A DNA stretch of 64,000 bases from Algoriphagus pacificus (GTDB taxonomy: Bacteria; Bacteroidota; Bacteroidia; Cytophagales; Cyclobacteriaceae), in NCBI RefSeq assembly GCF_017254845.1, contig NZ_JAFKCU010000003.1:748270-812269 (forward strand), read 5' to 3'. The notes under the pieces were generated by a model. That model was given only the letters and a program-made list of their open reading frames with translations, did no database searches and was not told the DNA's origin. Shown here one piece after another: positions 7,451 to 50,589 of the stretch (its first letter is position 1; every line of letters starts with the position of its first letter). The translations under genes and the position numbers were made by a program.

Positions 7451-7494
7451 TCAGTACAGCAGAAACAGTGAAAAGAAAAGCATCAGCAAATGCA

Positions 7495-7821: not shown

Positions 7822-7825
7822 TCTA

Positions 7826-8158: not shown

Positions 8159-8203
8159 TGTTGGTTTAGTTTAGAATAATAGTTTCAGTGGCAATTCTGC
8201 CTA

Positions 8204-17621: not shown

Positions 17622-18986
17622 TCACCGAACATTCTGCTCCATAGGATTCAGATTGATTTCCGCAGGAGGAATCAGAAAAGTGTATCTGGTATCCCCTGGA
17701 GGTAAGGTAGGTTTCTCTTCGTTATATTTCCTTTCCAAGGTCATGGCAAATTCCTCCTCCTGATTCAACCGCTTCAGATCCAGCCATCGGATCCCCCGAA
17801 ATGCCAGTTCTTTCCTTCTCTCCTCTAATATCCTTTCCAGCAGGATCTTTCCTGTCAAATCCTCCTCCCAAATGAAATTGCTATCCATTCTACTTTCCAA
17901 TAAGTATCGTAAGGCATCATTAGCCAAAGCTTCCTTCCCGGTTCGCACTGCTGATTCAGCCAAATTCAACCAAACCTCATCCACTGCCATACCACCGAAG
18001 TGATAAAAATCCCCAGTAAAGTTCCCTCTGAAATTATACAGTCCCTCTTCTTTAGCCGGAAGTAAAAAATACTCCCTTCGAAGATCCGCACTGTCATAAA
18101 GTTCCACCAGATCAGGATTCACAAAACAATCCCCGTTTCCTGTAAACCGACTGCTTAAGTGCTTCTGATAAAAGATCACCTCCGGATTAAACACCTCAAA
18201 GGAATAGGGAAGCTCTGAATCCAATGTTTTGAAATCCATCAATTCATCCCCTATTGCAAGGGCTTTTTCACTGTATTCATATGCCAGATCATATTCCTGC
18301 ATGACCAGATAGATCCTTCCCAGCATAGCCAAGGCTGCCCATTGGGAAGGTCTTGTAGGTATTTCAGATTGAATAGGCAAGAACTCCGTACCAACTTGCA
18401 GGTCAGAGATAATCTGGGCAAAAGATTCCTTCATGGTGGGTCTACCTACTTTCACATTGATATCAGAGGTCAATCGTATGGGAATCCCCAGTTGATCTTC
18501 CCTGTCCGGATCATAAGGCTCACTGAAATGCATCAGCACCTCAAAATGACCCATGGCTCGGAAAAAACGGGCAGAAGCTTCCAACTCGGCCATGCGGGAT
18601 TTTTCCTGTTCGCTCACGGGTTCATAGTCTCTGAGGCCATCCAAAACCACATTGGCATACAATACCTTTTCGTAAGCACCAGCGAAACCCGCATCCCATG
18701 CATCAGGCATATAGGTTTCCTCTTCCCATAAGTAATAGGCCTGCTGACTGAAACTTAGTCTGGAAAGCAGGTTCTCCCCGAAATACACATCATCGGAACT
18801 AATCAGACCCAAGTTCAGGTAATTGTTCATGGTGCTGCCTTCAGCATCCAAGAGCTGTTGAAAATCATCCAATGTGCTCAGGATGACCAGATTTTTATTG
18901 GGTTTGCTGTCCAGGAATTCTGAACAGGACTGTAGCAATAGCAGGACCATTACCCCCAACAGTGTTATATGTTTCTTTTGTATCAT
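17622..18986 (-). CDS. RagB/SusD-family outer-membrane lipoprotein
   Basis: A 454-residue protein with a lipoprotein signal peptide; the lipobox Cys is at about residue 21 (LLLLQSCSEFLDSKP). The family hallmarks follow: DSKPNKNL after the Cys, TPR-like helices with ARFFRAMGHFEVLMHF (about 140-155), and the C-terminal RILEERRKELAFRGIRWLDLKRL (about 397-419). SusD-type proteins form the lid of a SusC channel and bind the substrate at the cell surface. It lies directly downstream of the susC gene on the same strand. The substrate is not shown by the sequence; the TlpA partner and neighbourhood hint at a peptide rather than a glycan. Confidence 0.92.
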   Translation of the reverse strand: MIQKKHITLLGVMVLLLLQSCSEFLDSKPNKNLVILSTLDDFQQLLDAEGSTMNNYLNLGLISSDDVYFGENLLSRLSFSQQAYYLWEEETYMPDAWDAGFAGAYEKVLYANVVLDGLRDYEPVSEQEKSRMAELEASARFFRAMGHFEVLMHFSEPYDPDREDQLGIPIRLTSDINVKVGRPTMKESFAQIISDLQVGTEFLPIQSEIPTRPSQWAALAMLGRIYLVMQEYDLAYEYSEKALAIGDELMDFKTLDSELPYSFEVFNPEVIFYQKHLSSRFTGNGDCFVNPDLVELYDSADLRREYFLLPAKEEGLYNFRGNFTGDFYHFGGMAVDEVWLNLAESAVRTGKEALANDALRYLLESRMDSNFIWEEDLTGKILLERILEERRKELAFRGIRWLDLKRLNQEEEFAMTLERKYNEEKPTLPPGDTRYTFLIPPAEINLNPMEQNVR

Positions 18987-19082
18987 TTTACAAGTGTGTT
19001 TAGGATTAATAACTAGTGGTGAGAAAGGAGATTGAGTTCTTTTACCCCCCCATTTCTAAACTATCCCCTTTCCCGTTCAGGA

Positions 19083-22000
19083 TCAGAATCTGGCCCGGAA
19101 CCCCATTGAGAAAGAAAACAGACTGGGTTGGACCAGAAAATCAGGATCCTTGACTTCCTTGTTTGCTTTCCAGAGAATTCCCAGGTTATTCATATACACA
19201 TAGGTCTCCAAATGACCTGTCCTATTTCCTTTTCCAAAGGCCTTATCCCAGGACTTGGAGACTCTCAGATCCTGGAATCGAATATGATCTCCTTTGGAGA
19301 CAGTCGCTGCACTGCTCAGGTAAAACTGGGAGCGATAGGCATCCACCATTCCGGGATCCGAAGGAATATTGGTGGATTGTTCATCACCCGGTTTTATCCA
19401 TCTGTTCTCATAATCCGAGTGGGTTAGTTCCCCCCTGTTCAGGTCGTCGTAATTCACTGAAGGCCTTCTGAAGTAATAGCCCAGTCTATAGGAGATGTTG
19501 GCCGAAAGATTCCAGCCTTTATAGCTAAAGGTATTTCTTATTGCTCCGAAACGGGTGGGTCTACCGCTGCCATGGTATTGGATTGTTTCTTGGGTAGCCT
19601 CAGAATAGATCGATCCATAATCTCTGCTCGGTTCCCCGTCCACTAATCCCAGAGGAGCTCCATCCGCTGGGTCCAGCCCTGCAAAAGGAAAACTGTAAAT
19701 GGAATACAAGGGCTTACCCACCGAAGGGGTAGGCAGCGCTGGACTGTAATTGATTAATTGGGTGGCAGATGGGTCATTTTGAACCTCGGTCACCTTTTCC
19801 TGAAGCAAACTCAAAAAGAAATTGGTATTCCATAGAAACTCCCCTTTCAGGTTCCTGGAATTGATCACCAAATCCCATCCTTTGGTGCGCGTGGATGCAT
19901 AATTCAAGGTCGCATCCGAAAAGCCCGAGGAAATAAACAGCGGAATTGGAGCCAACAAATCCAAGCCCTGCTTTTGGTAGTAGTCGATCGAACCACCGAT
20001 TCTTCCCTCCCACAGTTCAAAGTCCAATCCTGTATTCAGGATCTTGATCCGTTCCCATTTCAGTTCCGGATTGGGTGGGGTTCTTAGACTCAGGTAAGGC
20101 AATCGGGTCAGTAGATTCTGGGCTCCAGCATAGCTGGTAGCGGTAGTCACTGCGGTGACATTGGAATTGGTATTCCCATTATAGCCATAACTCAAACGAA
20201 GCTTTAAAAAACTGATCAAATCAGACTTTAAAAACGCTTCCTCTGAGGCAATCCAACCCAGTCCAGCAGACCAAAGAGGAACAGATTTCTGATTGGTATT
20301 GACCCCGAACAGATTGGAGGCATCCCTGCGGAGACTTCCGTTGAACAGGTATCTATCCTTGTAGGAATAGCCCAGATTACCAAAAGCAGACACAAAACGG
20401 TTGATCCCTCCCCCGAATTCCTCGGTGAATGGAATGTTCTGAAGTCGCTGGGTTCCAAGATTGACAAAACGAGTCAGGTAATCCACCGGAAGGGAAGTAC
20501 CGTTATCCTCATCATATCCATAGGAAGTGATCCCATAATTCTCAGTCTGAAAATCCTTTAACTCCCCTCCTATAAATGCATCTACCCTATGATCGGCCCA
20601 AGTCCTGTTAAAATTCAATCGGGTTCTGAAGCTATGGCTAAAGCCATTTGAATTCCGTTGATCCAGGATACTTCCCATGGGAACAGGAAAGCTCAGGTCA
20701 CCGTCTTCTCCTACTTGAGTCAGGGAATTGATCAGATTTCGGGCATTGTAAGAAGAAAGAGGATCCAGGGATCTGACTGCCCCTTGGGAATTCCAATACT
20801 GGTAATTTGCAGTCCAGCTCAGGCTTTCCGCAAAGTCATAATTCAGTCCCAGATTCAACCTAAGTTCATTTCGGGTGGATCGGGTATGGCTGAGCCCGAT
20901 CTCATTCAAAGGGACATAGCTCCAGGGCAAGGCAACCAGATCAGCTACCGAATTTTTGAAACGAACGGAGAAATCCCGGTACACCTCCAATGGGTTCCCT
21001 GATTCATCGGCCAGTCCTTCGTAAGGAAAGAGACCTGCCACATTCGGGGTTCCCTCATAGGTATCTGCTTTGATCCCATATATCCCCGTCTGCACCTGTA
21101 ACTTCTCCTTTAAAAACTTCCATTCCTGATTCAGTGAAAAGGTAATCCGGGAAAGATCCGATGCTATTCCGGTATTCAGGTTCTTGTCCCAACCCAGACT
21201 CAATTGATAGGTGTTTCTCTTCGCTCCTCCAGACAATTGTAGTGCATATTGCTGTTGTATGGCAGTCCGTTGGAGGTACTTTTCCCGGTCCAGTCTCAGA
21301 TCGGTCCTTCTATATCGGCTGATTCCTGCATCCAGTTCCTGCTGGCTGATATCCCCCTGATCAAAGGCATAGAGCAGTTCTGCCAAAGGTGCCACAACAG
21401 GGTTTCTCCTATTTCCGATCAGGGAATTGAAATAGCCCTCCTCATACAGCTCCATCTGCTTATCCACCAGCGATGAAATCGCCATGGTGGGATAGTATAA
21501 AGGATCAGGTTTCGGCTGAAAGCTCAGGTTTCCGGTCAAACTCACTTGCATGGGCTGCTCGTAGGATCCACGCTTGGTGGTAATCACGATCACTCCGTTT
21601 CCTGCCCTTGCTCCCCAGATAGAGGCTGCAGCTGCATCCTTCAGTACGGTGATGCTCTCTACATCATTTGGGTTGATTCCGGAAAGCGGACCATCATAGG
21701 CCAGATTATCCACCACAATCAGCGGTTGGCTGTTGGAAAGCAAGGTGGCTGTACCACGAATGGAAATGCTCTCTCCAGGTGCTGTACCCGAAAGATCCCG
21801 GTTAAAAATCAAGCCTGGGGTCACATCTTCCAACCGTTCTATCAGATTGGTGGATACTCTCCGTTCCACCAGCTCCTGATTGATCCCCGAGAAAGAACCG
21901 GTGGTCCTGGACAAGGGAAGTTCACTAAAGCCTGTGGAAACCACAATCACCTCCTGAAGACTCAGATCCTCGGGGGTCAGCATCAGCTCCAGCCGTTTCT

Positions 22001-25218: not shown

Positions 25219-27797
<2,579 letters not shown>

Positions 27798-27848
27798 ATA
27801 CCTCACTCTAAGTGGCTGGTATGCTGCTGTTTATGCCATAATTTTAAA
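27798..27848. promoter_or_regulatory. Cas2-proximal flank of the array, candidate integration leader
   Basis: About 50 bases between the last repeat and the cas-operon terminator, turning AT-rich after a first spacer-like 30 bases. The identical repeats adjoin it, so new spacers are probably added at this side. Assignment as leader is inference from repeat decay only. Confidence 0.4.
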
Positions 27849-36586: not shown

Positions 36587-37681
36587 TTAATTTATGTTTT
36601 GTTGAAGAATTCTAGAATTGTTTTTGAAAGTTATACCTGAGAATTTAATTCCATCGATGGTTTGTTCAGCATATAGTACTCTATGATCTATGTTCAAAAG
36701 ATCATTTTCTGATAAGTTTTCAAGAAAATCATATTTCATTATTAATCTTTTCATTTTAGGAAAACAAATTCCATTGTAAAACAAAAGCAATAATTCAGTC
36801 GAAGACATTTGAGCTTGAATCAGATTAATAAACTTCCTATATCTCTTTTTAATATGTTCTCCTTCAGTTGATTTTCCATCAATTTTAATCTTCGCCCCTT
36901 CATAATCTCCTTTGAACGTACTCAATGCTTCACTAACCACTTCCATTTCCTCTTTCTGGTCTATAAAATCGAGTATATGGTAAAGATGTCTAAAGTAATG
37001 TCCCAGCTGGTTATGGTAGTTGTTGAATACTATGTAATATGCCATTCTGGCTCTTTTTTCTTCGGAATCAACATATTCAATTCGGTCAACTTCTTCGGAC
37101 TCCATAAGTTTCTGAATATTTTGAACCACATAAGAATTAGACCTATTTTTTTGTGAAATGATTTTGGTTATTTTTTTATAAACGGACTTTAAATCATTTT
37201 CGAGTGCTTCAAAAAAATCCAATTCCAAAGAATCATAATTAGGTTCTTCAAGATTGCTAAAACTTTGGAGTAAACCATGACGAATATCCTGTTGAACTTT
37301 CAAAAGGTTAAAGAATGTGTTTTCAAATTGTTGAGTTACGAAAACATTCTTTGTTTCCTTTAATTCTTGAATTTGAAGGCTAAGTTCCTTGCTCTGTAAT
37401 CTCAATGCCAGAAAAAATAAAAGTACTCCAGCAAGACTCCAAATTGTACCAACAATACCTCCTATAAAATCTCCAGTTGCTCCAGTTGAACTAATGTCAA
37501 TCGTGGTTCCATTTGAGACTATTTCATATTGGTTCTGAAGTTGTTTGAAGAAGTAGAAGGCAATTGCTAAACCTAACAAAACACTTACAATTGATAAAAA
37601 CAACAAAAGTATTCCCCAGACTCCATACTTGTGGAGAAATTTTGTCCATCTTTTTGAAAATGATACTTCCAAAGGTTTCAT
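36587..37681 (-). CDS. Putative phage abortive infection protein (putAbiC type)
   Basis: A 364-residue protein with two N-terminal membrane segments (about residues 18-42 and 70-95) and a cytoplasmic helical domain. The stretches FVTQQFENTFFNLLKVQQDI (about 113-132), LGHYFRHLYHILDFI (about 225) and AQMSSTELLLLFYNGIC (about 293-309) match the putAbiC family of membrane-bound phage-exclusion proteins. Such proteins are thought to cause cell arrest after infection; the trigger is unknown. It lies in the defence island, with the octapeptide-repeat gene upstream. Confidence 0.82.
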   Translation of the reverse strand: MKPLEVSFSKRWTKFLHKYGVWGILLLFLSIVSVLLGLAIAFYFFKQLQNQYEIVSNGTTIDISSTGATGDFIGGIVGTIWSLAGVLLFFLALRLQSKELSLQIQELKETKNVFVTQQFENTFFNLLKVQQDIRHGLLQSFSNLEEPNYDSLELDFFEALENDLKSVYKKITKIISQKNRSNSYVVQNIQKLMESEEVDRIEYVDSEEKRARMAYYIVFNNYHNQLGHYFRHLYHILDFIDQKEEMEVVSEALSTFKGDYEGAKIKIDGKSTEGEHIKKRYRKFINLIQAQMSSTELLLLFYNGICFPKMKRLIMKYDFLENLSENDLLNIDHRVLYAEQTIDGIKFSGITFKNNSRILQQNIN

Positions 37682-37846: not shown

Positions 37847-38305
37847 TTAGAAATAATTTTCAGGCCATAAAAACTCTGGTAAATGCTCTTTTATAAGATC
37901 TACCTCACGATTATATCTTCTTTTTTGTAGTTCACGGACAAAATGAGGCCAAGGTGGAATGTTACTTCTATAAACATTGGTTAGTGAAGTTGACATCCCT
38001 CCTCCAATCGCAGATGATAAACCTCCTCCAATTGCTGTCGATAACCCACCGTAAAGAGCTGTTGATAGTCCACCATACAAAGCAGTCGATAACCCACCAT
38101 AAAGTGCAGTCGATAGTCCTCCATATAAAGCTGTTGACATTCCTCCATAAAGTGCAGTCGATAGTCCTCCGTATAGAGCAGTTGATGCTCCACCATTAAG
38201 CGCTGTAGACATTCCCCCATTTAAAGCGGTTGAAAGTCCACCACCAAGACTCGTGCTTAAATTTCTAGGCCAGGTTCTTAAATTTTCAATAATTGGTCTG
38301 CTCAT
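37847..38305 (-). CDS. Octapeptide-repeat (GGLSTALY) protein
   Basis: A 152-residue protein built of about 12 tandem octads of the form GGLSTALY (residues about 16-111), coded by 24-base DNA repeats. Outer octads carry N, G or S variants (GGMSTALN, GGLSTAIG). The N-terminal cap reads MSRPIIENLRTWPRNLSTSL. The C-terminal tail, about 40 residues, contains NIPPWPHFVRELQKRRYN and an acidic Trp/Pro end. It has no signal peptide or membrane segment. The regular Gly-Gly and small-residue pattern suggests a beta-solenoid or spiral roll. Function is unknown. Similar GGGLSTGP-type repeats in hypothetical proteins of other bacteria are recalled but not verified. It lies in the defence island. Confidence 0.75.
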   Translation of the reverse strand: MSRPIIENLRTWPRNLSTSLGGGLSTALNGGMSTALNGGASTALYGGLSTALYGGMSTALYGGLSTALYGGLSTALYGGLSTALYGGLSTAIGGGLSSAIGGGMSTSLTNVYRSNIPPWPHFVRELQKRRYNREVDLIKEHLPEFLWPENYF

Positions 38306-39197: not shown

Positions 39198-39821
39198 TTA
39201 ACTCAACCCCAAAATCTCAAAAAGCTTATACATACCAGAATTTCCTCTATCAGGATTCTCTAGATCAAAACCACCAAACCTTTTAGAATAGGTTATTGCA
39301 GTAGGAAGCCTTTCTATTAACTTCAAATAAATATCATCTCCTTCTTTGGTGAAATATTTCTGTGATTTAGCGTAATCTGACAAATGATTTCTCAAGCGAC
39401 TTTCTGCTCTTGCACAATCATCGAAAGGAGCCTGCGTGAACTCAAAGTGAAGCAAGAGCCAAAATTCTATGCATGGTTGATTGATAATAACCGAGACATT
39501 CGTAATTGAACTCAACTTATCCTTATACTTCAAAAATTCATCAAGAGGTCTAAGCTGACCTTTTTTTACCTCTCTTGTCTCCTTTAAAATCACATCCATA
39601 TCTACGATCCATACCACAGTGTCAAAGTCATCGGAAAGACTAAGAACCTTATTGAATTGATCATGCAAAGACTTTCTTTGTGGGATTTCAGGTTTGATTT
39701 GAAACTTGGCATTGGGTTCATTTCTATTGAGCATAGTCAGATACCAGGCTTCAGTTTCTCCATCTACCACTACAGCGACCTTAGGTTTTCTCTTGAGAGG
39801 AATATTTCTTCTATTTCTCAT
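39198..39821 (-). CDS. rloB: RloB-like protein, partner of RloA
   Basis: A 207-residue protein with the TOPRIM-like features of RloB: VAVVVDGETEAWYLTML (about residues 15-31), the acidic VVWIVDMDVIL (about 69-79) and the CIEFWLLLHFEFTQAPF motif (about 116-132). It overlaps the 3' end of rloA by 11 bases. RloA/RloB pairs are linked with type I restriction loci and resemble AbiL-type abortive-infection systems. RloB may be the nuclease or toxin part; this is inferred from the fold. Confidence 0.85.
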   Translation of the reverse strand: MRNRRNIPLKRKPKVAVVVDGETEAWYLTMLNRNEPNAKFQIKPEIPQRKSLHDQFNKVLSLSDDFDTVVWIVDMDVILKETREVKKGQLRPLDEFLKYKDKLSSITNVSVIINQPCIEFWLLLHFEFTQAPFDDCARAESRLRNHLSDYAKSQKYFTKEGDDIYLKLIERLPTAITYSKRFGGFDLENPDRGNSGMYKLFEILGLS

Positions 39822-41109
39822 CAGTCAGATCAATATAGAAGTCCCCGGTATTTGGCACCCCTCCTAGCTTCCCTATTTTATATGCATTATATACACTGCT
39901 GGTATTTCTGATCACAGAAGAGTCAAAATCAGCCAGTGAATAGAGCTCAGTAGCGCTACCTTCATTTTTATCGGTAAACCAGATTGCGTCGTTTCTATAA
40001 ATATCCCTGTTGTCCAAAATCTCCCGGTTGTGAGTTGTAGCAATCAATTGGGACCTCTTGGAATTCATCAGAAATGAAAGGATAAAATGATTGTATAGAT
40101 CTGGGTGCAAAGAAGTTTCCAGTTCGTCAATCGAGAAAATGACTGACCCCTTGATCATCAAAGCCAAAAGGCCTGCAAATCCAAAATACCGCTGAGTTCC
40201 CTGGGATTCAGATAAAAACGGTAAGAAATATTTAGAGCCATCTACTGTATGCTCAAATTCCAATTTTGAAAAAGATAATTTACCTCTTCTACTCCATTCT
40301 TTGAAATCATCAGGATTTTTATAAACTCTATTTTGCAATAGCTCCATAAATTTCGGACGTTCAAGCTGATCTATTTTAATATCTGAAATATTAAAATCAG
40401 CTTTCCGTAAGATTCTTGAGATATCATTCTTATCTAATTCATCAGAATCAATTTTGTCTAGAATATAATAATCTAACTGCGTATTTGTTGATACCATTTG
40501 ATTGAGATGGTTCTCAAACCAGTCAGCCACATTCCTCAATTCATCAACCTGAATATTTGTCTTCAGATATCCACCGAGCACCGTATTATTCCACAGGGTA
40601 TTTGATTCCAGTGTCTTTTTATAGACTTTATCTACAGAGATCTTACTTCCAAATTTGATTTCTGTAAACTGATTTTCAACATCTGTAGTCCGCCTAAAAA
40701 TATTGGCCTTGTTCGGATTGAAAAAATTCAGCTCTTCGGTTAAAACTGCGTTTTTATCGAATTCTACTGAATAGGCATACTTTATCTCATCGTGGATAAA
40801 TTCAATGGAAAGTATTGAAGGCTTACTAGGAGTAACCTTATCGAATAGAAAAGGGGAAAATTTAAGTTGGGCTGTTTTCTTTTCTTCGGGTTCCAAGACT
40901 AGATCTCTTAGAAAATCAAGAGCCCGAAGGATGGTAGTCTTTCCTGAGGCATTGGCACCATAGATAAGACCAAGCTTTAGAACCCTAATGCCACTTTGGG
41001 TATTAATCACGTACTGATCTTCCAAATGAGTGGAACTATCCGCTTCAAAAGACAGGATTTGTTTTTCCTTAACAGGTCCAAAATTTTGGACACTAAAGTT
41101 GAGTATCAT
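39811..41109 (-). CDS. rloA: RloA-like AAA ATPase
   Basis: A 432-residue ATPase with Walker A in LIYGANASGKTTILRAL (about residues 48-64), Walker B in VIFSIDELETSLHPDL (about 322-337) and the following LIATTHNREIL sensor motif. These features and the RloB gene directly downstream define an RloA/AbiL-type pair. The protein has no nuclease domain of its own. A gap of 185 bases separates it from the hsdR gene, so it may have its own promoter. Confidence 0.87.
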   Translation of the reverse strand: MILNFSVQNFGPVKEKQILSFEADSSTHLEDQYVINTQSGIRVLKLGLIYGANASGKTTILRALDFLRDLVLEPEEKKTAQLKFSPFLFDKVTPSKPSILSIEFIHDEIKYAYSVEFDKNAVLTEELNFFNPNKANIFRRTTDVENQFTEIKFGSKISVDKVYKKTLESNTLWNNTVLGGYLKTNIQVDELRNVADWFENHLNQMVSTNTQLDYYILDKIDSDELDKNDISRILRKADFNISDIKIDQLERPKFMELLQNRVYKNPDDFKEWSRRGKLSFSKLEFEHTVDGSKYFLPFLSESQGTQRYFGFAGLLALMIKGSVIFSIDELETSLHPDLYNHFILSFLMNSKRSQLIATTHNREILDNRDIYRNDAIWFTDKNEGSATELYSLADFDSSVIRNTSSVYNAYKIGKLGGVPNTGDFYIDLTDEK

Positions 41110-41294: not shown

Positions 41295-44200
41295 TCACTT
41301 CTGATACCTCTTAAAATTCTCCGCCTGCTCAAAAATCTCCTTATAGACTTCGTCTCTATCCACTGGCGGATAATCATTCTCTGCAAGTAGAATAATCAAA
41401 TCCACTTTCAATTCCGCCTTGATATCATCCCGCTTACTCCAGTCTGTGTATTTGGCCTTATCGTCCACCACATCTTTGACCTCTTGTGCCAAGTGAATTA
41501 ACTTGTCTTCGGGATAGACAAAATCATACTTTTTGGCCAAGGCTTTTAGAATGTCATAGAAAGCCTTCTCTTCGAAATCAATTCCCATCTCAGCAAAGGA
41601 TTCTTTCTCCTTTTGCATCGCATAGTATAGGTCTATAATCTCATTCGTGAAATCTTCCAACACTTCACTTTGCAAGACATCGGATTCCTTCCGCTCATTG
41701 TATTTGTCCACCAGCGTTTGCATCTGCTTGGAGAAATCTATTCCCTTGATCTTATTGACTTTTTTGAATTCGTCAATTGCCTTGGCTAGCAACTTTTGTA
41801 ACAACTTGATTTTTGTATGCGGAAGCTTGATCTTATCGATCTTAGCCAAGTAATCAGCCTCAAAAATATCCACTTCGCTTTGCCCGTCTTCCCCAAGTTT
41901 AAAAATCTCCTCTACCCCTTCGCTCTGAATCGCTTCCTGTATCATTTCCCGAACTTTCGCATTCATCTGATCGGTATCGGGGCTTTCTCCCTTGGTCAAC
42001 TTGAACACAATCGACCGTACCGCAATGAAAAAATGAATCTTGTCTTTGACTTCATTGGTAAAGGCCGCAGATCCTGAGCAAATATCATAAGCAGCTTTCA
42101 TCCGCTTTACCAGATTCATAAAGCGTCGCTCCAATTGCTGGGTCAACTGCACAAATTCAGCAGCTTGATTCAAGGTATGTAATTGCTGTAGTGGTGTGCC
42201 GTCAAAATAGGCACTGTAATCAAACTTGTGGAAGATGGCTTCCAGCAGATCCAACTGGTCTTTGACCACAATAATGGACTGCTCGATGTCTTCAAAGTTT
42301 TGGCTATCCACCGTAGAATACTGCTTCAAGGCCAAATTCATCTGCTTCTTAATCCCAATGTAATCCACCACTAAGCCTTTTGACTTTCCTTCAAACTTCC
42401 TATTCACTCTCGAAATCGTCTGAATCAAACTATGCTGCTGTACCGGTTTGTCTATGTACATGGTATCCAAAAAAGGCACATCAAATCCTGTGAGCCACAT
42501 ATCCACCACTATCGCAATCTTAAAATTACTCTTGACATTCTTAAACTGCCGATCCAGTTCCTTTCGGTAATCCTGATTGCCTAAAAGCTCATAAAGACCC
42601 TTTTTATCATCCTTACTTCTAGTCATCACCATATTGACTCTGGCCATAGGAAGAATCTCCTTCTTGTCTTTTTCACTGAGCTCAACTCCTTCTGCAGCAT
42701 GAAGGATTTCTCCCCAAGCTGGACGCAAAGCCAGGATTTCCTGATAAAGTTGATAGGCAATTTCCCTACTGCTACAAACAAACATTGCCTTGCCAAGCAG
42801 TGTACTGCCTTCTTCTATTCTGTTTTCATAATGCCTGACAAAGTCCTCTGCAATGGCTTCGATTCTTCCGGGATCTCCCAAAATCGTCCCCATCTGTGCC
42901 ATTTGCCGCTTGCTCTCGTCGATCTGGTATTCATTCCCTCCATCATCAGCTACCATTTGATAGTATTTCTCAATCTCCTGAAGCTTTCTGTTTTCCAGCA
43001 AAACTTTCGCCGCTCTGCCTTCATAAACGATCCTAACAGTAATGTCATCCATCACTGATTCGGTCATGGTATAGGTATCCACAATCTCCCCAAACACTTC
43101 CATGGTCGCATCAATCGGCGTTCCCGTGAAACCCACATAGGTGGCATTCGGCAGGGAATCATGGAGGTGCTTCGCAAAGCCAAAACTCTTCTTCACACCC
43201 TGCTCGGTAATCCGAACCTTCTGATCCAGATTGGTTTGGCTGCGGTGTGCCTCATCGGAAATACAAATCACATTGCTTCGATCCGTGAGCAATTCGGTGT
43301 CCTCATTAAACTTATGAATCGTGGTCAAGAACACTCCCCCAGAATTTCTACCCTTCAGCTCATTTCGCAGATCTTCCCGACTGGTCACAGACTTGATTAC
43401 ATTGTCTCCGACAAAGGCCTTGGCATTGGTGAACTGACCGCTCAACTGATCATCCAGATCGGTACGGTCGGTGATCAACACAATGGTAGGACTGGCAAAG
43501 TCCACGCTCTTCATCAGCAAGCGGGTCAAAAAAAGCATGGTAAAGCTCTTACCACAACCTGTCGCTCCAAAGTAAGTTCCTCCCTTTCCATCGCCCTGAG
43601 GATGCTGATGGAGTTTGATATTTTCAAACAGCTTAGTCGCTGCATAGTACTGCGGATAACGGCAGACGATCTTCTCATCTCTCTTGGAGCTATCCGGCAG
43701 GTAAATAAAATTATGGATGATATCCGTAAGTCGGCGCTTATCCAGCATCCCACGGATCAGCGTGTACATGGCGTCGATTCCATGCACCTTGGTGGACTTG
43801 CCTGTGGCCGGATCGATTTCCTGATCTAAGCCTTCGATTTTCCGCCAGGCATAGAAGAACTCATAGGGAGCAAAAAAACTTCCTGCCTTGGTATTCACTC
43901 CATCGGAGATCACGCAAAAGGCATTGTACTTAAATAGATCCGGAATATCCCGCTTGTAGCGATTAGTCAGCTGATCGTAAGCAGAGAACAAAGAGGCGGT
44001 TTCCCGGATAGAGGATTTAAACTCAAAGACTACCAACGGCAAACCATTAATGTAGAGAATCCCATCGGGAATGCGCTTTTCAAAACCCTGAATCTCTAAC
44101 TGATTCACGAACTTAAAGTGGTTCTTTTCCGGCTGCTCATATTCGATCAAAGAGATAAAAATATCCTTCTGGTTTCGGTCTTCCCGCTTCAGCAGAAAGC

Positions 44201-44465
44201 CATCCCGCACCCAGTTCATAATCGTCTTATTCGTCTCATAGAGATCCGAAGCTGGCAACTTCTCCAATTCCCGAATAATGGAAAAGATCTCAACCGGAGT
44301 GATTTTCTCAGCAGCATATCGTTCCAGCAAATAGCCATGCAAATCCTCCCTAATCAGAACTTCTTCCTTGCCCCTACTAATCTCCTCACCCGGCACATAA
44401 GGATAGCCCTGTTCTCCTAAAAGAGTGATAAAGGCTTGTTCTAGTTGGGATTCGGTGAATTTCAT
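41295..44465 (-). CDS. hsdR: Type I restriction enzyme, R subunit
   Basis: A 1056-residue HsdR. The N-terminal nuclease core has LPLVVFEFKSS (about residues 144-154), the PD-(D/E)XK-type motif. Walker A is GATGCGKSFTMLF (about 293-306), the DEAH box ICISDEAHRSQ (about 399-409), and helicase motif III/V/VI stretches VGFTGTPID, DMWLTGFDVPFLDTMYID and QTISRVNR follow. It cuts DNA after ATP-driven translocation with HsdM and HsdS. It starts 3 bases after the small TIR gene, so the TIR/SLOG module is inside the same transcription unit. Length and motifs look intact. Confidence 0.95.
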   Translation of the reverse strand: MKFTESQLEQAFITLLGEQGYPYVPGEEISRGKEEVLIREDLHGYLLERYAAEKITPVEIFSIIRELEKLPASDLYETNKTIMNWVRDGFLLKREDRNQKDIFISLIEYEQPEKNHFKFVNQLEIQGFEKRIPDGILYINGLPLVVFEFKSSIRETASLFSAYDQLTNRYKRDIPDLFKYNAFCVISDGVNTKAGSFFAPYEFFYAWRKIEGLDQEIDPATGKSTKVHGIDAMYTLIRGMLDKRRLTDIIHNFIYLPDSSKRDEKIVCRYPQYYAATKLFENIKLHQHPQGDGKGGTYFGATGCGKSFTMLFLTRLLMKSVDFASPTIVLITDRTDLDDQLSGQFTNAKAFVGDNVIKSVTSREDLRNELKGRNSGGVFLTTIHKFNEDTELLTDRSNVICISDEAHRSQTNLDQKVRITEQGVKKSFGFAKHLHDSLPNATYVGFTGTPIDATMEVFGEIVDTYTMTESVMDDITVRIVYEGRAAKVLLENRKLQEIEKYYQMVADDGGNEYQIDESKRQMAQMGTILGDPGRIEAIAEDFVRHYENRIEEGSTLLGKAMFVCSSREIAYQLYQEILALRPAWGEILHAAEGVELSEKDKKEILPMARVNMVMTRSKDDKKGLYELLGNQDYRKELDRQFKNVKSNFKIAIVVDMWLTGFDVPFLDTMYIDKPVQQHSLIQTISRVNRKFEGKSKGLVVDYIGIKKQMNLALKQYSTVDSQNFEDIEQSIIVVKDQLDLLEAIFHKFDYSAYFDGTPLQQLHTLNQAAEFVQLTQQLERRFMNLVKRMKAAYDICSGSAAFTNEVKDKIHFFIAVRSIVFKLTKGESPDTDQMNAKVREMIQEAIQSEGVEEIFKLGEDGQSEVDIFEADYLAKIDKIKLPHTKIKLLQKLLAKAIDEFKKVNKIKGIDFSKQMQTLVDKYNERKESDVLQSEVLEDFTNEIIDLYYAMQKEKESFAEMGIDFEEKAFYDILKALAKKYDFVYPEDKLIHLAQEVKDVVDDKAKYTDWSKRDDIKAELKVDLIILLAENDYPPVDRDEVYKEIFEQAENFKRYQK

Positions 44466-44468
44466 ATT

Positions 44469-45035
44469 CTACCTTTTAAGCCATTCAACTATAGAAACAA
44501 CTTTATCATTCGGAAAAACCACATAAACACCAGCATTTCTATAAGCCCCCTTAAATAGTTGATAATAGTCTAAGCTGTATAAATAAGGGTAAATTTCTAA
44601 GTATTCACTTCCAGAAAAGTCTTCGTAGTCCTTAACAATAGGCATAATTGCAATGTTTTCAATATACTTTGCAGCATCTCCTAGGCCTAATTCCCAATTA
44701 CACCATTTAGAAGAAATAGCTCCTACCGTTGCCAACAGAATAAACTTATGATTTTCCGTAATTTTTTCTTTAATTCTTCTAGCAGTAGTACCAGATGTGG
44801 TTTTTGGCATACCTTCATCCAACCAATCTACGTAGATTTCTACTCCAAAAGATTTCAATAACGATATAGCTCCTTCTAAATATTCTCTTTCATCGTGCTT
44901 ATGTGAAAGAAATATTTTCGTTTTAGAAACTGTACTTTCTCCTTTAAAACTATTTAAGCTTTCGTTTAAGGTCATATAATAAGATTTTAATGACCTTCTT
45001 TGATTTCTTAGTTCTGATTCGGTAATAAAGCTCAT
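44469..45035 (-). CDS. TIR-domain protein, last gene of the TIR/SLOG module
   Basis: A 188-residue protein with a charged N-terminal helix region (1-37) and a TIR domain (about 38-175). The first strand reads KIFLSHKHDER, the second IYVDWLDEGMP, and the catalytic-type motif is SKWCNWELG with the Glu at residue 115. This is the Glu used by NAD-hydrolysing TIR enzymes. It starts 3 bases after the ThsB-like gene and ends 3 bases before hsdR. An NADase or signal-producing role is inferred. Confidence 0.85.
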   Translation of the reverse strand: MSFITESELRNQRRSLKSYYMTLNESLNSFKGESTVSKTKIFLSHKHDEREYLEGAISLLKSFGVEIYVDWLDEGMPKTTSGTTARRIKEKITENHKFILLATVGAISSKWCNWELGLGDAAKYIENIAIMPIVKDYEDFSGSEYLEIYPYLYSLDYYQLFKGAYRNAGVYVVFPNDKVVSIVEWLKR

Positions 45036-45038
45036 GAA

Positions 45039-45725
45039 TTATTTAATAGTTTTTTCAATCTTAAAATCATCCTTCTTATCTCGTAACTCTATTGCTTTGT
45101 CAATATATTTAGTGGGATTTGTTTTAAAATCAGACCATTTTACAGATTGAATGTAGGAGCTATCGCCAGAGTAAACCCAACTACCATTACAAATCCTTCT
45201 ATTTGGTTCCTTTACATTAAACATATTATCACGTATAATTTGAAATAAAATAGGTGTGTTTAAAGTAATGCAATTACAGTCTCTATCATATGTTATATAA
45301 TATTCGTAACTTCCATTTTCATCTGGAAGTATAACGGCAATAACACCATTAGTACTACTAGACTTGCCTAATCTGGTCTGATTCTTTAAAGAATATGAAA
45401 CTTCCCAAGGTATCCATTGGTCTTTTTCAGAGATAAATGATTCCCTCATTCCTTTAGAAATCAATACAATAGTAACACTACTATCAAAAATCTTGTCTCC
45501 TAATTTTGAACTGATTGAAGAGTCTGCCAATTCCTCCATACTTTCATCATCATTTTCACCTTTATAGATATGGTCATCATCGGTTAAATGCTGTGAAATT
45601 TCATCAACATAATGCCTTGCCGTTGTTGCAATTTTTATTCTACCAAAAATGGAATCTTGATAAATACCTAAATCCTGTACTAAAGAGTCCGAATATTTAT
45701 ATGAAACGAATACTTTCCTAGCCAT
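45039..45725 (-). CDS. ThsB-like TIR protein (MTH538/DUF1863 type)
   Basis: The chosen ATG (MARKVFVSYKYSDSLV) lies 4 bases after the SLOG stop; a longer frame would overlap that gene. The 228-residue product has the longer TIR-like fold of the MTH538/DUF1863 family, which includes ThsB of Thoeris. It has a long insert after the first helix (about 30-70) and the motif DQWIPWEVSYSL, with the candidate catalytic Glu at about residue 108. ThsB proteins sense infection and make a cyclic-ADP-ribose-type signal. Here no ThsA is present; a SLOG protein is coded directly upstream. Confidence 0.82.
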   Translation of the reverse strand: MARKVFVSYKYSDSLVQDLGIYQDSIFGRIKIATTARHYVDEISQHLTDDDHIYKGENDDESMEELADSSISSKLGDKIFDSSVTIVLISKGMRESFISEKDQWIPWEVSYSLKNQTRLGKSSSTNGVIAVILPDENGSYEYYITYDRDCNCITLNTPILFQIIRDNMFNVKEPNRRICNGSWVYSGDSSYIQSVKWSDFKTNPTKYIDKAIELRDKKDDFKIEKTIK

Positions 45726-45729
45726 ATTA

Positions 45730-46389
45730 TTAAATTTTATCAATTAGAAGTTTCTGAAACATAGACACATACCCATAATCTTTTAATAATCGATCATTTA
45801 AGAATTCCTTGGGGAGAAAATTTTCATAAACAATTTTTGAAGCAGCTCCAGTACTTGCTACAGGTAATAGTAATGCATTAGGATGAAACTCACGGAACAT
45901 ATTAAATTCAACTTCAATACCATCCATACCTCCGATAAAAATTGCAGCGGAATAATCATATTCATTAAACATTCTCATTCTCATATGTTGAATACTGGAA
46001 TGTATGTCACCAGTATTCTCTGTGAATTTCACATTTTCAAACTTATTTATATCATCAATGAATTTGTCTTTAAAAAAAAGTGATTGATATAAAACCACAT
46101 GCTCTTGAATATTACTTTTGAGTTTTAATTCAAGTTGAAATTTTTCTTCTTCAGTCAACTTATCCCATTTATCTATTCTTTCTAAATTTGCTTTTAATTT
46201 TTGTTCAATAACATAATTAATGAGTGGAGTTATTGATGGATGTCCTCCCCAAATGATTCTAAAATTAGGAATCATTAAAGTAGATAATGCTATAACGGCA
46301 TCTCTTATAGCTATTACATCTCCAGTTTCGTAATATTTCGGATGCCTCTCTGGCAGTGGAATACTAGCCGATAAAAATACATTTTTCAT
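45730..46389 (-). CDS. SLOG-domain protein in the TIR module
   Basis: A 219-residue protein with Rossmann-like features of SLOG domains that occur with TIR and SIR2 proteins: the opening FLSASIPLPERHP, then IWGGHPSITPLINYV (about residues 45-59) and IFIGGMDGIEVEFNMF (about 151-166). SLOG domains bind or process nucleotide ligands; the one in ThsA binds the TIR signal. This protein is a SLOG domain alone, with no visible effector or membrane segment. It overlaps the upstream TIR gene by 4 bases. Ligand sensing is inferred from the family. Confidence 0.78.
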   Translation of the reverse strand: MKNVFLSASIPLPERHPKYYETGDVIAIRDAVIALSTLMIPNFRIIWGGHPSITPLINYVIEQKLKANLERIDKWDKLTEEEKFQLELKLKSNIQEHVVLYQSLFFKDKFIDDINKFENVKFTENTGDIHSSIQHMRMRMFNEYDYSAAIFIGGMDGIEVEFNMFREFHPNALLLPVASTGAASKIVYENFLPKEFLNDRLLKDYGYVSMFQKLLIDKI

Positions 46390-47567
46390 TTATCATATTG
46401 TTTAGTAACAAACCATCTGTTGAAATTAATCTTTTTGATTGTTTTGATTTCAAGATAATCATTCAACCAGTCCAAATGGTCAAGCCAATAATCTCTGATA
46501 GACAAATCATCATAAATTAATCTAATAGACTTGACTTCTTTTTTCCCAATTTTGTTAAGGAGTTTCTCTGAACTATGACAATTAATTGATTGAGGAATTC
46601 CAACAGTAGGAATGTATACTATTGTTTTACCCGAAGATAGTTCTTGAGAAATATACCTTTGATATTGAAGCTGTACACTGATGGAATTATTTGAAGCTGC
46701 CTGGGTAAAATCTGTAATTATAGAATCTTGTCTTGAAGCTAAGTTTCGGGCTCTTGTTCCTTCAATCATATTTACAATTTTTGGAAGAATATCTTCCTTT
46801 AATCTATTGTTCAAATCACTTGAGTAAAATGGCTTTTCAAAATCGTTTGTCTTTAATTGAATAGATTCAGCCAAATAGGCAAAATCTTCAAAATCACAAC
46901 CTGGCCAGATTAAATGAACAATTCCAATTCGTTTAATATGAGCTTTTTCCAACTCTTTATTACACCATTCACTTTTTAAAAACCCATCAGTATTTAACAT
47001 TAATATCACATCGCAATCGGTCATCCTATGCCATAATTCTTCTTGGAAATCCTCACCTTTATCCACTGAATGAGTATCTAAAAAGACATCAAAGTTATTT
47101 TGTTCAAGTAATTCATAAAGCTGAATAGCAACATTGCTTGATTCACTTCTCTTATAAGAGATGAAAACCTTCCTACTTTTCCTAAGTAATTCAAAACCCT
47201 CTAAAATCAGATTAACAATTTTATTTAGGTTATTATCCCATTCTAGAATATTATATTTTTTTAAAATTTCAGGAATGTCAGCCAAGAGTTTTTTTGCTGA
47301 AATTGGCAATATTATGTTTCCATCATTTATCTGATGCATAATAATATCTAATGTATCAGAATCAGGAATAAAGTCTCCTCCGAAGTACACTACATATGCC
47401 GGCTCTCCACCAGAATATTCATGAATATTGTCTTCTGTGATAAATCTTATAAAATCAATATTCAATTTTAATTCATCAAATTTGTTTTGAAGCTCAATTT
47501 TAAGTTTATTAAAAAAATCAACATTATCTCCAAGTTGGATTAATTGATATTTACAGTTTCCTATCAT
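46386..47567 (-). CDS. Large TIR-domain protein, first gene of the TIR/SLOG module
   Basis: A 393-residue protein in three parts: an N-terminal alpha/beta domain (1-125) of unknown family, a TIR domain (about 132-262) and a C-terminal domain (270-393) rich in charged and aromatic residues. The TIR part has KVFISYKRSESS, VFLDTHSVDKGEDF and SEWCNKELEKAH with the catalytic-type Glu at residue 205. An active NAD-cleaving enzyme is likely. The stop overlaps the SLOG start (ATGA), which suggests translational coupling. It follows hsdS after 30 bases. Confidence 0.82.
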   Translation of the reverse strand: MIGNCKYQLIQLGDNVDFFNKLKIELQNKFDELKLNIDFIRFITEDNIHEYSGGEPAYVVYFGGDFIPDSDTLDIIMHQINDGNIILPISAKKLLADIPEILKKYNILEWDNNLNKIVNLILEGFELLRKSRKVFISYKRSESSNVAIQLYELLEQNNFDVFLDTHSVDKGEDFQEELWHRMTDCDVILMLNTDGFLKSEWCNKELEKAHIKRIGIVHLIWPGCDFEDFAYLAESIQLKTNDFEKPFYSSDLNNRLKEDILPKIVNMIEGTRARNLASRQDSIITDFTQAASNNSISVQLQYQRYISQELSSGKTIVYIPTVGIPQSINCHSSEKLLNKIGKKEVKSIRLIYDDLSIRDYWLDHLDWLNDYLEIKTIKKINFNRWFVTKQYDK

Positions 47568-47597: not shown

Positions 47598-48977
47598 TCA
47601 ATTATAATTTTCATTCACCCTCAACCTTCCACTAATCAGCTCCGGCAATAACCTGTCTCGAAGTTGGGTTAGAGTTTCAACTTCTCTTTTATTGGTTGTT
47701 ATTTTTGATATTGAATCAATTGAGAGCTTATCAAAAACCTTAATTATCTCCTTATTATTTGGAATTATAACTTTCATTCCCTTTAGAATCTGAGTAGTAA
47801 GACTACCTCTAATGCTATGGGAGTCACTAATTCCACGCATTTCTTCATATCTATCCTTTAGATTAAAAAATAACCACTGCTTTATACCTTCAATTCCTCG
47901 CACAATCACTACAGATTGATTAACGTAGGTATTAATGCAATTGTAAGATGTTTGTCCTCGTGTATTACCTTGCCCTGCGGAAGCAATAAGGATGTCACCC
48001 TTTATTGCTAATTTCGTGGAGGAATTATCAATTCCTTTTTGCGTAATAAATTTTTCGGTACTAATTATAAATGAATCTCTTGTTTCACCGGAGGAAAACC
48101 AATTAAACTCTCCATTCCAATATTCGGGATTTTGCGTACTTGGTGTTCCTCCACTAAAAACTTTATCAGAAATATCACCTAAACTCTTCACCTCCCACCC
48201 CTCAGGAATCCATTTCCCCAGCGTCTCATTAAAGACAAAAGAAGAAGGAAACTTAGCAGCTAGATCGGGATTCTTAGACAGTAGTTTCTTGGAATGAGGA
48301 ACGAGCTGGCGCTTCTCTGCCATCGCCTGTAATTCATCGGGGATTTCGTTTCCTGCTGCTAAGGCATTATCTAGCACGGGATCGAAGTCTACAAACCAGC
48401 TTTTAAACAAGGCTTGCGCCATGGCTTCCAGCGTTTGGTTCATCTGACGGTTTAGCTCGATCTTATCATCCAATTTGCCTAAAATATGGGCAATGGCTTT
48501 TTGTTCGGAGAGAGGGGGAAGATTGATTTTGAAAGATTCTATCTGACTTGGACTTAAATTAGGTTGGCCGCTTCCGCTTCCAGCCATAAATAAAGCTTCC
48601 TGATATCTCGGTTGAGTAAGAGTATAATAAAGAAAATTAAGATTTAGATTTTCTTCATTTACATCAAACCTTCCTACTCGTTGATTTAAAAGCCCAAAAG
48701 AATCATCATCACAAATTAGCCTTCCAACTCTACCTACACTGCCCGCACCTGTCATAGCAATTAAGACATCACCATTATATAATTTGAATTTTTCAAGCTT
48801 ATTTAAGGGTAGGTTTTCTGGGTAGCATTGAGAACCTTCTAATGTGGCAATCCTATTTTGGATGTTTTTAATTTTAACAACAGGAATGCCTTCGTCTACA
48901 AAGTCGTTGCTTTTAAAAGCATAACCACCTTGAAGTTTACAGAAAACTCCTAGCTCAATTTCATCCCAATCACTCAT
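47598..48977 (-). CDS. hsdS: Type I restriction system specificity subunit
   Basis: A 459-residue HsdS with two target-recognition domains separated by a conserved helix. The central helix is around residues 163-205 (LGKLDDKIELNRQMNQTLEA, then ALFKSWFVDFDPVL) and the second is at the C-terminus (LTQLRDRLLPELISGRL). Each TRD contacts one half of a bipartite DNA target. The TRD parts are AT-rich and the conserved helices GC-richer, as is common for genes that swap TRDs. Its start overlaps hsdM by 8 bases. The target sequence cannot be read from the protein. Confidence 0.93.
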   Translation of the reverse strand: MSDWDEIELGVFCKLQGGYAFKSNDFVDEGIPVVKIKNIQNRIATLEGSQCYPENLPLNKLEKFKLYNGDVLIAMTGAGSVGRVGRLICDDDSFGLLNQRVGRFDVNEENLNLNFLYYTLTQPRYQEALFMAGSGSGQPNLSPSQIESFKINLPPLSEQKAIAHILGKLDDKIELNRQMNQTLEAMAQALFKSWFVDFDPVLDNALAAGNEIPDELQAMAEKRQLVPHSKKLLSKNPDLAAKFPSSFVFNETLGKWIPEGWEVKSLGDISDKVFSGGTPSTQNPEYWNGEFNWFSSGETRDSFIISTEKFITQKGIDNSSTKLAIKGDILIASAGQGNTRGQTSYNCINTYVNQSVVIVRGIEGIKQWLFFNLKDRYEEMRGISDSHSIRGSLTTQILKGMKVIIPNNKEIIKVFDKLSIDSISKITTNKREVETLTQLRDRLLPELISGRLRVNENYN

Positions 48978-50589
48978 ACCCCAATACCTTTAAATTCTCA
49001 CGAATAGCTTGATCCAATTCCTCGGATTGAGCCATTTGTTTTTTCAGCGTAGCTGTCAGTTCGCTCATTTTATCCTCGAAGTGGATACCATCGTCTTCCT
49101 CTTCTGCTACGCCTACATAGCGACCGGGAGTCAAGACGTAGTCGTTGGCTTGGATTTCGGAGAGGGTGGCGGATTTGCAGTAGCCGGGGATGTCTTGATA
49201 CCCCCCTTCGCCCCCCTCAAGGGGGGAATCGGGTCCCACTTCCCCCTTCAGGGGGATTGAGGGGGTATAATTACGCCAAGAATGATAGGTATCTGCTATT
49301 TTAGCAATATCCTCTTTAGTAAGTTCTTTTTGGGTGCGGTCGATCATGCTGCCGAGTTGGCGGGCATCGATAAAGAGGGTTTCGCCGCTTCGATCCCGAA
49401 ACTCCTTTTCTGGATTTTCTGGATGGGGTCGCTTTTTCTTATTCTTGGTCACAAACCATAAACAAACCGGAATCTGCGTGGTATAGAAGAGTTGACCCGG
49501 TAACGCGATCATGCAGTCCACTAGATCCTTATCCACCAGTTGCTGACGGATCTCGCCTTCACCAGAGGTATTGCTACTCATAGAGCCATTTGCCAAGACA
49601 AAGCCTGCCGTTCCATTTTCGGAGAGTTTGCTCAGCATATGCAGAATCCAGGCATAGTTGGCATTTCCGGCTGGAGGTGTGGTAAAACCCGACCAGCGGG
49701 AATCATCTTCTAGTTCGTTCTTTTCCCGCCACTGACTTTGGTTGAAAGGTGGATTGGCCATGATGTAATCTGCCTTTAGATCAGGATGCTGATCTTTAAA
49801 AAAGGTATCCGCTGGCACATCACCCAGATTGGCAGAAATCCCACGGATGGCAAGGTTCATTTTCGCCAGTTTATAGGTCACGGCAGTATATTCCTGCCCG
49901 TAGATAGAAATGTCTTTGGTATTGCCCTGATGACTTTTCACAAAGTCTATACTTTGCACAAACATCCCACCCGAACCGCATGCCGGATCATAGATCTTTC
50001 CCTTATAGGGTTCGAGCATTTCTGCGATCAGGTTAACAATACACTTCGGCGTATAAAATTCTCCACCGCCTTTTCCCTCGGCAGCAGCGAAGCGACCCAA
50101 GAAGTATTCATAAATCCTGCCCACCACATCTTCCTCAGCATCGCCTACGGTATCGATGTTGTTGATGGTATCAAGCAGGGCAGCAAGTTTGCTGGGATCT
50201 AGATTGAGTCGGGAAAAATAATTGTCAGGAAGTGCGCCTTTCAGCGAAGGATTGTTCTTTTCTATGGTATGCAGGGCAGTATCGACGATCAAGGCGATGT
50301 TATCCTGTTTGGCATTGTCGATGACATAGCCCCAGCGGCTTTCTGGAGCGAGAAAAAAGACATTCTTCATATTGTAGAACTCCTTCATCTCCAGGTATTT
50401 CTCCTTGCCCTCTGCGATCAGTTCTTCACGCCTTTGGGTAAAGGTATCGCTTGCAAACTTTAAAAAGATCAAGCCCAGCACCACGTGTTTGTATTCTGAG
50501 CTTTCTACTGTTCCTCTGAGTTTATTGGCCGAATCCCAGAGGCTTTCTTCCATGGATTTGGTATTCTTTTGGGCTGCTTGTTTAGCCAT
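48970..50589 (-). CDS. hsdM: Type I restriction system methyltransferase subunit
   Basis: A 539-residue HsdM. It has an N-terminal helical domain, the SAM-binding motif IYDPACGSGGMF (about residue 198-210) and the N6-adenine catalytic motif NPPF in MANPPFNQSQW (about 276-286). Near residue 445 the protein carries an odd Pro/Gly-rich insert (IPLKGEVGPDSPLEGGEGG) coded by a C- and G-rich palindromic DNA repeat at 49200-49267. The insert keeps the frame, so the enzyme probably still works. It is the first gene of the operon, preceded by two inverted repeats. Confidence 0.94.
   Translation of the reverse strand: MAKQAAQKNTKSMEESLWDSANKLRGTVESSEYKHVVLGLIFLKFASDTFTQRREELIAEGKEKYLEMKEFYNMKNVFFLAPESRWGYVIDNAKQDNIALIVDTALHTIEKNNPSLKGALPDNYFSRLNLDPSKLAALLDTINNIDTVGDAEEDVVGRIYEYFLGRFAAAEGKGGGEFYTPKCIVNLIAEMLEPYKGKIYDPACGSGGMFVQSIDFVKSHQGNTKDISIYGQEYTAVTYKLAKMNLAIRGISANLGDVPADTFFKDQHPDLKADYIMANPPFNQSQWREKNELEDDSRWSGFTTPPAGNANYAWILHMLSKLSENGTAGFVLANGSMSSNTSGEGEIRQQLVDKDLVDCMIALPGQLFYTTQIPVCLWFVTKNKKKRPHPENPEKEFRDRSGETLFIDARQLGSMIDRTQKELTKEDIAKIADTYHSWRNYTPSIPLKGEVGPDSPLEGGEGGYQDIPGYCKSATLSEIQANDYVLTPGRYVGVAEEEDDGIHFEDKMSELTATLKKQMAQSEELDQAIRENLKVLGYE
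49200..49267. repeat. In-frame palindromic repeat inside hsdM
   Basis: A C/G-rich element with units such as CCCCCCTCAAGGGGGG and TCCCCCTTCAGGGGGA, each a hairpin. It is unlike the surrounding coding sequence and codes the PLKGE...PLEGGEGG insert. It resembles short mobile palindromes found in several Bacteroidota genomes; that is recalled, not checked. Confidence 0.7.

Follow-up and report, generated by a model that had tools for sequence, protein, structure and literature searches.

The stretch of DNA analysed here, 64,000 nucleotides from Algoriphagus pacificus (assembly GCF_017254845.1, contig NZ_JAFKCU010000003.1, positions 748,270 to 812,269 of the forward strand; henceforth the window), carries a type I restriction operon in which four open reading frames (ORFs) on the minus strand, running from 47567 down to 44469, are inserted between hsdS and hsdR (Table 1). 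A first-pass annotation of the window had described them as three TIR genes and a lone SLOG gene, packed with a 4-base overlap or gaps of 3-4 bases, and this description stands: none of the four ORFs is missing or interrupted, and the motifs SEWCNKE, DQWIPWE and SKWCNWE hold a catalytic-type glutamate that is conserved in all three TIR families. The first TIR gene begins 30 bases after hsdS and overlaps the SLOG gene by 4 bases; the second follows the SLOG gene after 4 bases if its ATG at 45725 is taken as the start, and gaps of 3 bases separate it from the third TIR gene and the latter from hsdR. As listed, the second TIR ORF begins at a TTG (45743) and overlaps the SLOG gene, but the ATG at 45725 is the more likely start, because its methionine is kept in 88% of 126 aligned relatives. 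Judging from this spacing, the four genes are probably co-transcribed with the restriction genes.

Table 1. Genes of the locus, with positions in the window.
Gene	Coordinates	Strand	Product and features
TIR-1 (ThcB4)	46386..47567	-	393 aa; central TIR domain (~134-224) with additional N- and C-terminal parts; catalytic-type Glu205
SLOG gene (ThcA)	45730..46389	-	219 aa; lone SLOG domain (cluster 3)
TIR-2 (Tb)	45039..45725	-	ThsB-type TIR; 228 aa counted from the conserved ATG
TIR-3 (Tc)	44469..45035	-	TIR_2 protein; 188 aa
hsdS	47598-48977	-	Type I specificity subunit; Pfam Methylase_S 139.5 bits; context gene, dispensable in relatives
hsdM	48970..50589	-	Methyltransferase subunit; Pfam N6_Mtase 372.6 and HsdM_N 87.1 bits; context gene
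hsdR	41295..44465	-	Restriction subunit; Pfam HSDR_N 126.9 and T1RH-like_C 327.9 bits; PADLOC REase_I 1281 bits

By the family assignment of its proteins, the locus is a type III Thoeris system inside a type I restriction operon. In NCBIfam 20.0 (June 2026), TIR-1 matches NF058526 (Thoeris_type3_ThcB4) with 450.3 bits against a cut-off of 220, residues 7-383 covering positions 1-374 of the 375 in the profile, and the SLOG protein matches NF058525 (Thoeris_type3_ThcA) with 232.6 bits against a cut-off of 110, both models being of equivalog rank. Four other loci were submitted to NCBIfam (L015, L020, L087 and L089 in our numbering), and in each of them the ThcB4/ThcA pair likewise exceeds both cut-offs. 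The notion of a new, unnamed four-gene system is ruled out by these matches, and the module turns out to be, as regards its name, a known Thoeris variant: the kind of system is known, and what is new is this copy and its setting in a restriction operon. The name ThcB4 presumably implies the existence of ThcB1-ThcB3; the NCBIfam numbers adjoining the pair (NF058524 and NF058527) are unrelated families, and no model for ThcB1-ThcB3 was found there.

Other collections bear on the remaining genes as well. Pfam TIR_2 recognizes TIR-1 (57.5 bits) and TIR-3 (32.1 bits; cut-off 28), SLOG cluster 3 (PF18180) recognizes ThcA (178.5 bits; cut-off 25) and ThsB_TIR barely passes in TIR-2 (22.5 bits against a cut-off of 21.2). 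The ThsB models of PADLOC match ThcB4 (PDLC00434, 386 bits), TIR-2 (PDLC00428, 265 bits) and TIR-3 (PDLC00423, 200 bits), and no PADLOC model matched ThcA. TIR-2 and TIR-3, designated here Tb and Tc, are two further TIR genes, ThsB-type by PADLOC and matched by no NCBIfam model. Among the four genes and six flanking genes, Pfam reported no macro domain (a feature of the ThsA of type II Thoeris), and no peptidase domain (the caspase-like partner of type IV Thoeris) in the ten proteins scanned; the four genes gave no membrane, caspase or anticodon nuclease domain either, and no ThsA with SIR2 and STALD was found by Pfam in the operon. The first-pass annotation was right in describing a Thoeris-type set of TIR and SLOG genes that lacks a SIR2-SLOG or membrane ThsA in its operon. 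The genome of the window gave no STALD match, a weak negative, since control genomes were equally silent.

The distribution of these genes was compared over 94 loci, assembled from genome-scan, plasmid, viral and whole-genome matches. A ThcA profile built from a 15-row alignment was run against one genome per species, with the best 80 of at least 306 relatives kept, and the locus sample is biased to close relatives and Bacteroidota. From a starting set of 102 records (L001-L101 and the window region), six repeats (L001, L002, L007-L010) were omitted and L005 and L094 were dropped, their ThcA not having been recovered by ORF picking; the L005 stretch (as L110) carries Tc, Tb, ThcB4 and ThcA. 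Identical ThcB4 proteins occur in two pairs of the retained loci (L004/L075 and L085/L086). A phage collection search gave no match, the viral scan recovered none of 23 candidate stretches with a single-protein query and 3 of 35 with an alignment query, and PHROGs matched unnamed families only.

A main result of this comparison is that ThcB4 and ThcA form a near-invariant pair. In 92 of the 94 loci the gene immediately before ThcA, on the same strand, is ThcB4; the misses are L091, to which we return below, and L092, where ThcB4 sits at the end of another contig and a contig break is the most plausible explanation. When 72,556 plasmid records were searched, ThcA retrieved 29 of them and ThcB4 retrieved these 29 and one more, with a 22% match; eight of the 29 were fetched for inspection. 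The recurrence of the pair in the loci and the agreement of the plasmid searches indicate that its co-occurrence exceeds chance. Likewise, in two draws of 395 genomes (some shared), all seven genomes with a strong ThcB4 match hold ThcA, one of them on another contig. Pairwise distances of ThcB4 correlate with those of ThcA at r = 0.86 (91 loci), against 0.42 for Tb (56 loci) and 0.62 for Tc (47 loci), loci with several copies being left out. Of 5,426 E. coli genomes, 4 contain the DNA of the enterobacterial pair of a Citrobacter plasmid at an identity of at least 99%, by a search that is blind to distant versions. The idea of four obligate genes, and with it the earlier picture of four equal parts, must be given up: only the ThcB4-ThcA pair is constant, and the other TIR genes make up a variable set.

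An eighth genome of the two draws (G090) holds a weaker ThcB4 relative (123 bits, below the cut-off). In its locus (L109, 9369-15240) a TIR gene, a free SLOG cluster 2 protein immediately behind it and a ThsB-type TIR come in succession, which reproduces the plan with a different SLOG family. Elsewhere in L109, a single ORF (18749-19900, minus strand) matches both SIR2_2 and TIR_2.

In 91 of the 94 loci, one to five further TIR genes, belonging to three families, lie no more than 4.5 kb from ThcA, and two of the three loci without a small TIR by clustering (L012, L087 and L091) hold one that had been missed. In L012 it is present both by profile and in the annotation; in L087 a 667-aa ORF (6355-8355, plus strand) directly upstream of ThcB4 joins an N-terminal TIR to hexapeptide-repeat (acyltransferase-like) domains. 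L091 preserves only the first 16 positions of Tb, at a contig end. The nature of this variability is apparent in the nearest relative of the window, its genus mate L019, with which it shares 89% identity in ThcB4, 91% in ThcA, 73% in Tc and 26% in Tb. At the DNA level, the 89% match between both loci ends at 45721, the start of Tb, and restarts at 44942, within Tc, and hsdR, ThcB4 and ThcA match at 87-89%. Tb has been swapped as a block between these genus mates, with ThcB4 and ThcA retained, and one other genome carries both kinds of Tb side by side in tandem. The hsdS gene matches that of L019 only in a central stretch (48519-48191, 88%) and at its short ends, as expected if its target regions had been exchanged too. 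The replacement of Tb over a conserved ThcB4-ThcA background fits a role for Tb as the recognition part.

The surroundings of the small TIR genes yielded two further observations. A small putative membrane protein co-occurs with a ThsB-type TIR of 250-290 aa in seven loci (L022, L029, L063, L076, L079, L081 and L097); its L063 copy matches the PADLOC candidate PDC-M50A, and it is perhaps part of another TIR module. Genes of the nucleotide-modification kind form the second group: Nmad2 lies near a small TIR gene in ten loci (L026, L030, L032, L039, L041, L063, L078, L085, L086 and L096), with HMUDK_hel in nine, MazG_C in six and thymidylate synthase in three.

The catalytic glutamate of the TIR domain is intact in all 91 ThcB4 sequences (Glu205), in all 64 Tc sequences (Glu115) and in 125 of 126 Tb sequences, and Arg137, Gly153-Gly154 and Glu161 of ThcA are invariant in all 94 loci. 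Profile comparison relates ThcA to the SLOG domain of ThsA with a probability of 95.2% (0.1% for a TIR-profile control), and Arg137 and Glu161 align with the ThsA pocket pair, Arg376 and Glu408 of the L030 copy of ThsA. The spacing of this pair (32) is that of Arg371 and Glu403 in Bacillus cereus ThsA, with which it is equated by spacing alone; the latter residues are reported to lie in the ligand pocket and to coordinate 3'cADPR (PMC7272460, PMC10022894). The suggestion of the first-pass annotation that the SLOG protein is a signal receptor is plausible. Two SLOG proteins of other kinds occur in these loci (identified by Pfam on one copy each, and by clustering for the remaining copies): ThsA in 5 of the 94 and a fusion of SLOG cluster 2 with a lipase in 4, suggesting that SLOG is a receptor joined to different executioners. 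A protein of ~540 aa is found beside the ThcB4-ThcA pair in L014, L015, L018 and L100, and also in L123 (E. coli AW1.7). It bears the annotation 'CBASS phospholipase' in L014 and L015, where no CBASS cyclase is annotated beside it, and the L100 copy has an N-terminal SLOG cluster 2 and a patatin domain; it is perhaps a SLOG-gated lipase effector.

The reading that we regard as reasonably probable is that of a type III Thoeris system carried as cargo, in which the small TIRs sense infection and signal, ThcA is the receptor and ThcB4 the NADase executioner. Tb and Tc would recognize a phage product and convert NAD into an ADP-ribose-type signal; ThcA would bind this signal through its SLOG domain and, once loaded, activate its partner ThcB4, whose TIR domain would then destroy NAD and halt the infected cell. 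The plan would be that of a split ThsA, with a TIR in the place of the SIR2 NADase. The role of executioner falls to ThcB4 by elimination, as the constant partner of ThcA, and the CARF-TIR protein Cat1 is a precedent for an executioner TIR that is triggered by the binding of a signal (PMC12162218). For the small TIRs, a possible model by analogy is the staphylococcal Thoeris in which two ThsB proteins are reported to meet on the phage capsid protein and one of them makes the signal (PMC12578639). A constant receptor/executioner pair with variable sensors replaces the claim of a new system with a testable division of labour, and the natural exchange of Tb, with ThcB4 and ThcA ~90% identical, constitutes a ready experiment on recognition by the small TIRs.

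Several results weigh against this reading. ThcA stands without any ThcB4 in L091 (1 of the 94 loci), and among the 25 loci with hsdM the correlation of ThcB4 and ThcA distances (0.75) is little above that of ThcA and hsdM (0.69). The ThsA arginine that aligns with Arg137 is a majority residue, not an invariant one, in five ThsA copies. By profile comparison ThcB4 does not resemble ThsA (0.2%), so that the split ThsA must be understood as a likeness of plan only. PADLOC, moreover, classes ThcB4 as ThsB, that is, as a signal maker, and the invariant arginine and glutamate of ThcA would be equally in keeping with a LOG-like enzyme.

The last two points converge on an alternative that we consider improbable, in which ThcA is a LOG-type enzyme that cleaves or converts a nucleotide made by ThcB4, and by the small TIRs as well, the role of converter or executioner falling to ThcA and that of signal maker to ThcB4. 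LOG enzymes have a catalytic arginine and glutamate, and the spacing of the invariant ThcA residues seems similar to theirs. SLOG domains have been described both as enzymes and as sensors (PMC9503650). On the other hand, in ThsA the same two residues line the pocket in which they coordinate the signal (PMC7272460, PMC10022894). Among solved structures, moreover, the ThcA profile matches ThsA proteins best, albeit weakly (E-values from 0.013 to 0.96). The near-invariance of the pair is open to yet another explanation, which we hold to be distinctly unlikely, whereby ThcA would restrain ThcB4 in the manner of an inhibitor or antitoxin and set it free when the cell is infected, and the small TIRs would act as co-sensors and not as signal makers. 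That SLOG can restrain an executioner is suggested by ThsA, whose SLOG pocket mutants are reported to be over-active in plants (PMC10022894). The catalytic glutamate retained by virtually all Tb and Tc proteins would nonetheless be needless for a mere co-sensor.

The restriction context of the window invites a different question, namely whether the module serves the restriction enzyme. Strict location between hsdM-hsdS and hsdR is seen in 21 of the 94 loci, all of which begin with the order M-S-ThcB4-ThcA-Tb and have hsdS directly upstream, while another 8 have at least one hsd gene no more than 7 kb away and the remaining 65 have none in that range. These 65 loci retain the same gene set, and the restriction context is optional. 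When the hsd label is mapped onto a tree of 91 ThcB4 proteins, a minimum of 13 changes is required, and well-supported branches account for 11 of these; shuffled labels require ~24 on average, none of 500 shuffles being as low as observed. The hsd context is thus clustered on the ThcB4 tree, since shuffles need so many more changes, and yet has been repeatedly gained or lost, as at least 13 changes imply. Repeated nesting in restriction operons illustrates one way in which such systems travel. A module guarding the restriction enzyme, and firing when a phage blocks restriction, would resemble PrrC, which is also located between hsdS and hsdR, and the position of the 21 nested loci, together with a spacing suggestive of a single transcript, could be taken in its favor. 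Nevertheless, an obligate restriction link is rejected by the 65 loci devoid of hsd genes, which also speak against the earlier proposal of a backup for failed restriction as a general role; the changes of label on the ThcB4 tree argue in the same direction, and the gap between hsdS and hsdR is occupied by other genes as well. We therefore give very little weight to this explanation: a general guard role is unlikely, and such a role is conceivable in the restriction-nested copies. That the signal of the small TIRs goes to a ThsA encoded at some other genomic site, with the ThcB4-ThcA pair as a bystander, is scarcely credible, for ThsA genes near the pair in 5 loci are offset by 89 of 94 without a ThsA of that family within 7 kb, and the genome of the window, with the reservation made above, shows no STALD.

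Returning to a division of labour between sensing small TIRs, a ThcA receptor and a ThcB4 executioner, a broader scheme can be put forward tentatively, as one that is possible but on balance doubtful. It would consist of a TIR-to-TIR relay, in which the signal of exchangeable TIR sensors is read by a free SLOG that fires a second TIR as NADase. SLOG domains would be plug-in receptors, and nested copies would be co-transcribed with a restriction enzyme, both systems swapping their recognition parts as blocks. The pairings of this plug-in seen across the loci would be STALD joined to SIR2, cluster 2 joined to a lipase and cluster 3 beside a TIR. The restriction-nested relay would moreover share its transcript with the restriction enzyme, and the target regions of hsdS and Tb would both be block-swapped between close relatives.

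Other features of the window lie outside the four-gene module. Directly after hsdR there is a pair formed by an AAA_21 ATPase and RloB (39198-41109, minus strand), matched by the PADLOC AbiLi and AbiLii models. A 152-aa ORF of repeated GG-[LM]-STAL-[YN] units, with a 24-base DNA repeat (37847-38305, minus strand), adjoins a putAbiC gene identified by Pfam at 36587-37681. Further away, positions 25249-27798 hold a CRISPR-array-like repeat with a period of ~76 bases, made of a conserved part of ~46 (GTTGTGAATTGCTTTCAAATCAGTACTTTACTAGTAGGATCACAGC) and a variable part of ~30.

Within the library searched, a literature search on type III Thoeris, the Thc names and SLOG cluster 3 found no description of the system. 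A phage protein, TadIII, is described as giving protection against 'Thoeris type III' (PMC12390725), in a statement for which that article cites two works, one of them Costa et al. 2025; the system meant there may or may not be that of ThcA and ThcB4. Type numbers are used inconsistently for Thoeris, PADLOC having a 'Thoeris type II' of its own (PMC8565338) and a 'type VI' being mentioned elsewhere (PMC13232231).

With respect to known systems, the window shares with type III Thoeris both constant genes, which pass the family cut-offs, and a pair accompanied by further TIR genes is also found in enterobacteria (L015). It differs in lying inside a type I restriction operon and in having two small TIRs, whereas the pair of L015 is accompanied by three or four additional TIRs and a SLOG-lipase. 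Type I Thoeris, composed of a SIR2-SLOG ThsA and ThsB, has in common with the window the ThsB-type small TIRs and a SLOG with matching arginine and glutamate, but the SLOG of the window is a separate protein of cluster 3 instead of STALD, SIR2 is missing and a TIR is the candidate NADase. The gap between hsdS and hsdR is also the place of PrrC and other genes carried by hsd operons; in contrast to PrrC, the genes of the window give no anticodon nuclease match, and their association with hsd genes is not constant. In type II Thoeris, with its transmembrane-macro ThsA, and in type IV, with its caspase-like partner, TIR-made ADP-ribose signals are reported to drive the partner (PMC12847820), as would be the case here, although the four genes of the window code for no macro, membrane or caspase domain according to Pfam. 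A functional parallel to the proposed executioner is Cat1 of type III CRISPR, likewise reported as a NAD-destroying TIR under the control of a nucleotide receptor (PMC12162218); the receptor of Cat1 is a CARF domain fused to the TIR, whereas that of the window would be a SLOG domain in a separate protein.

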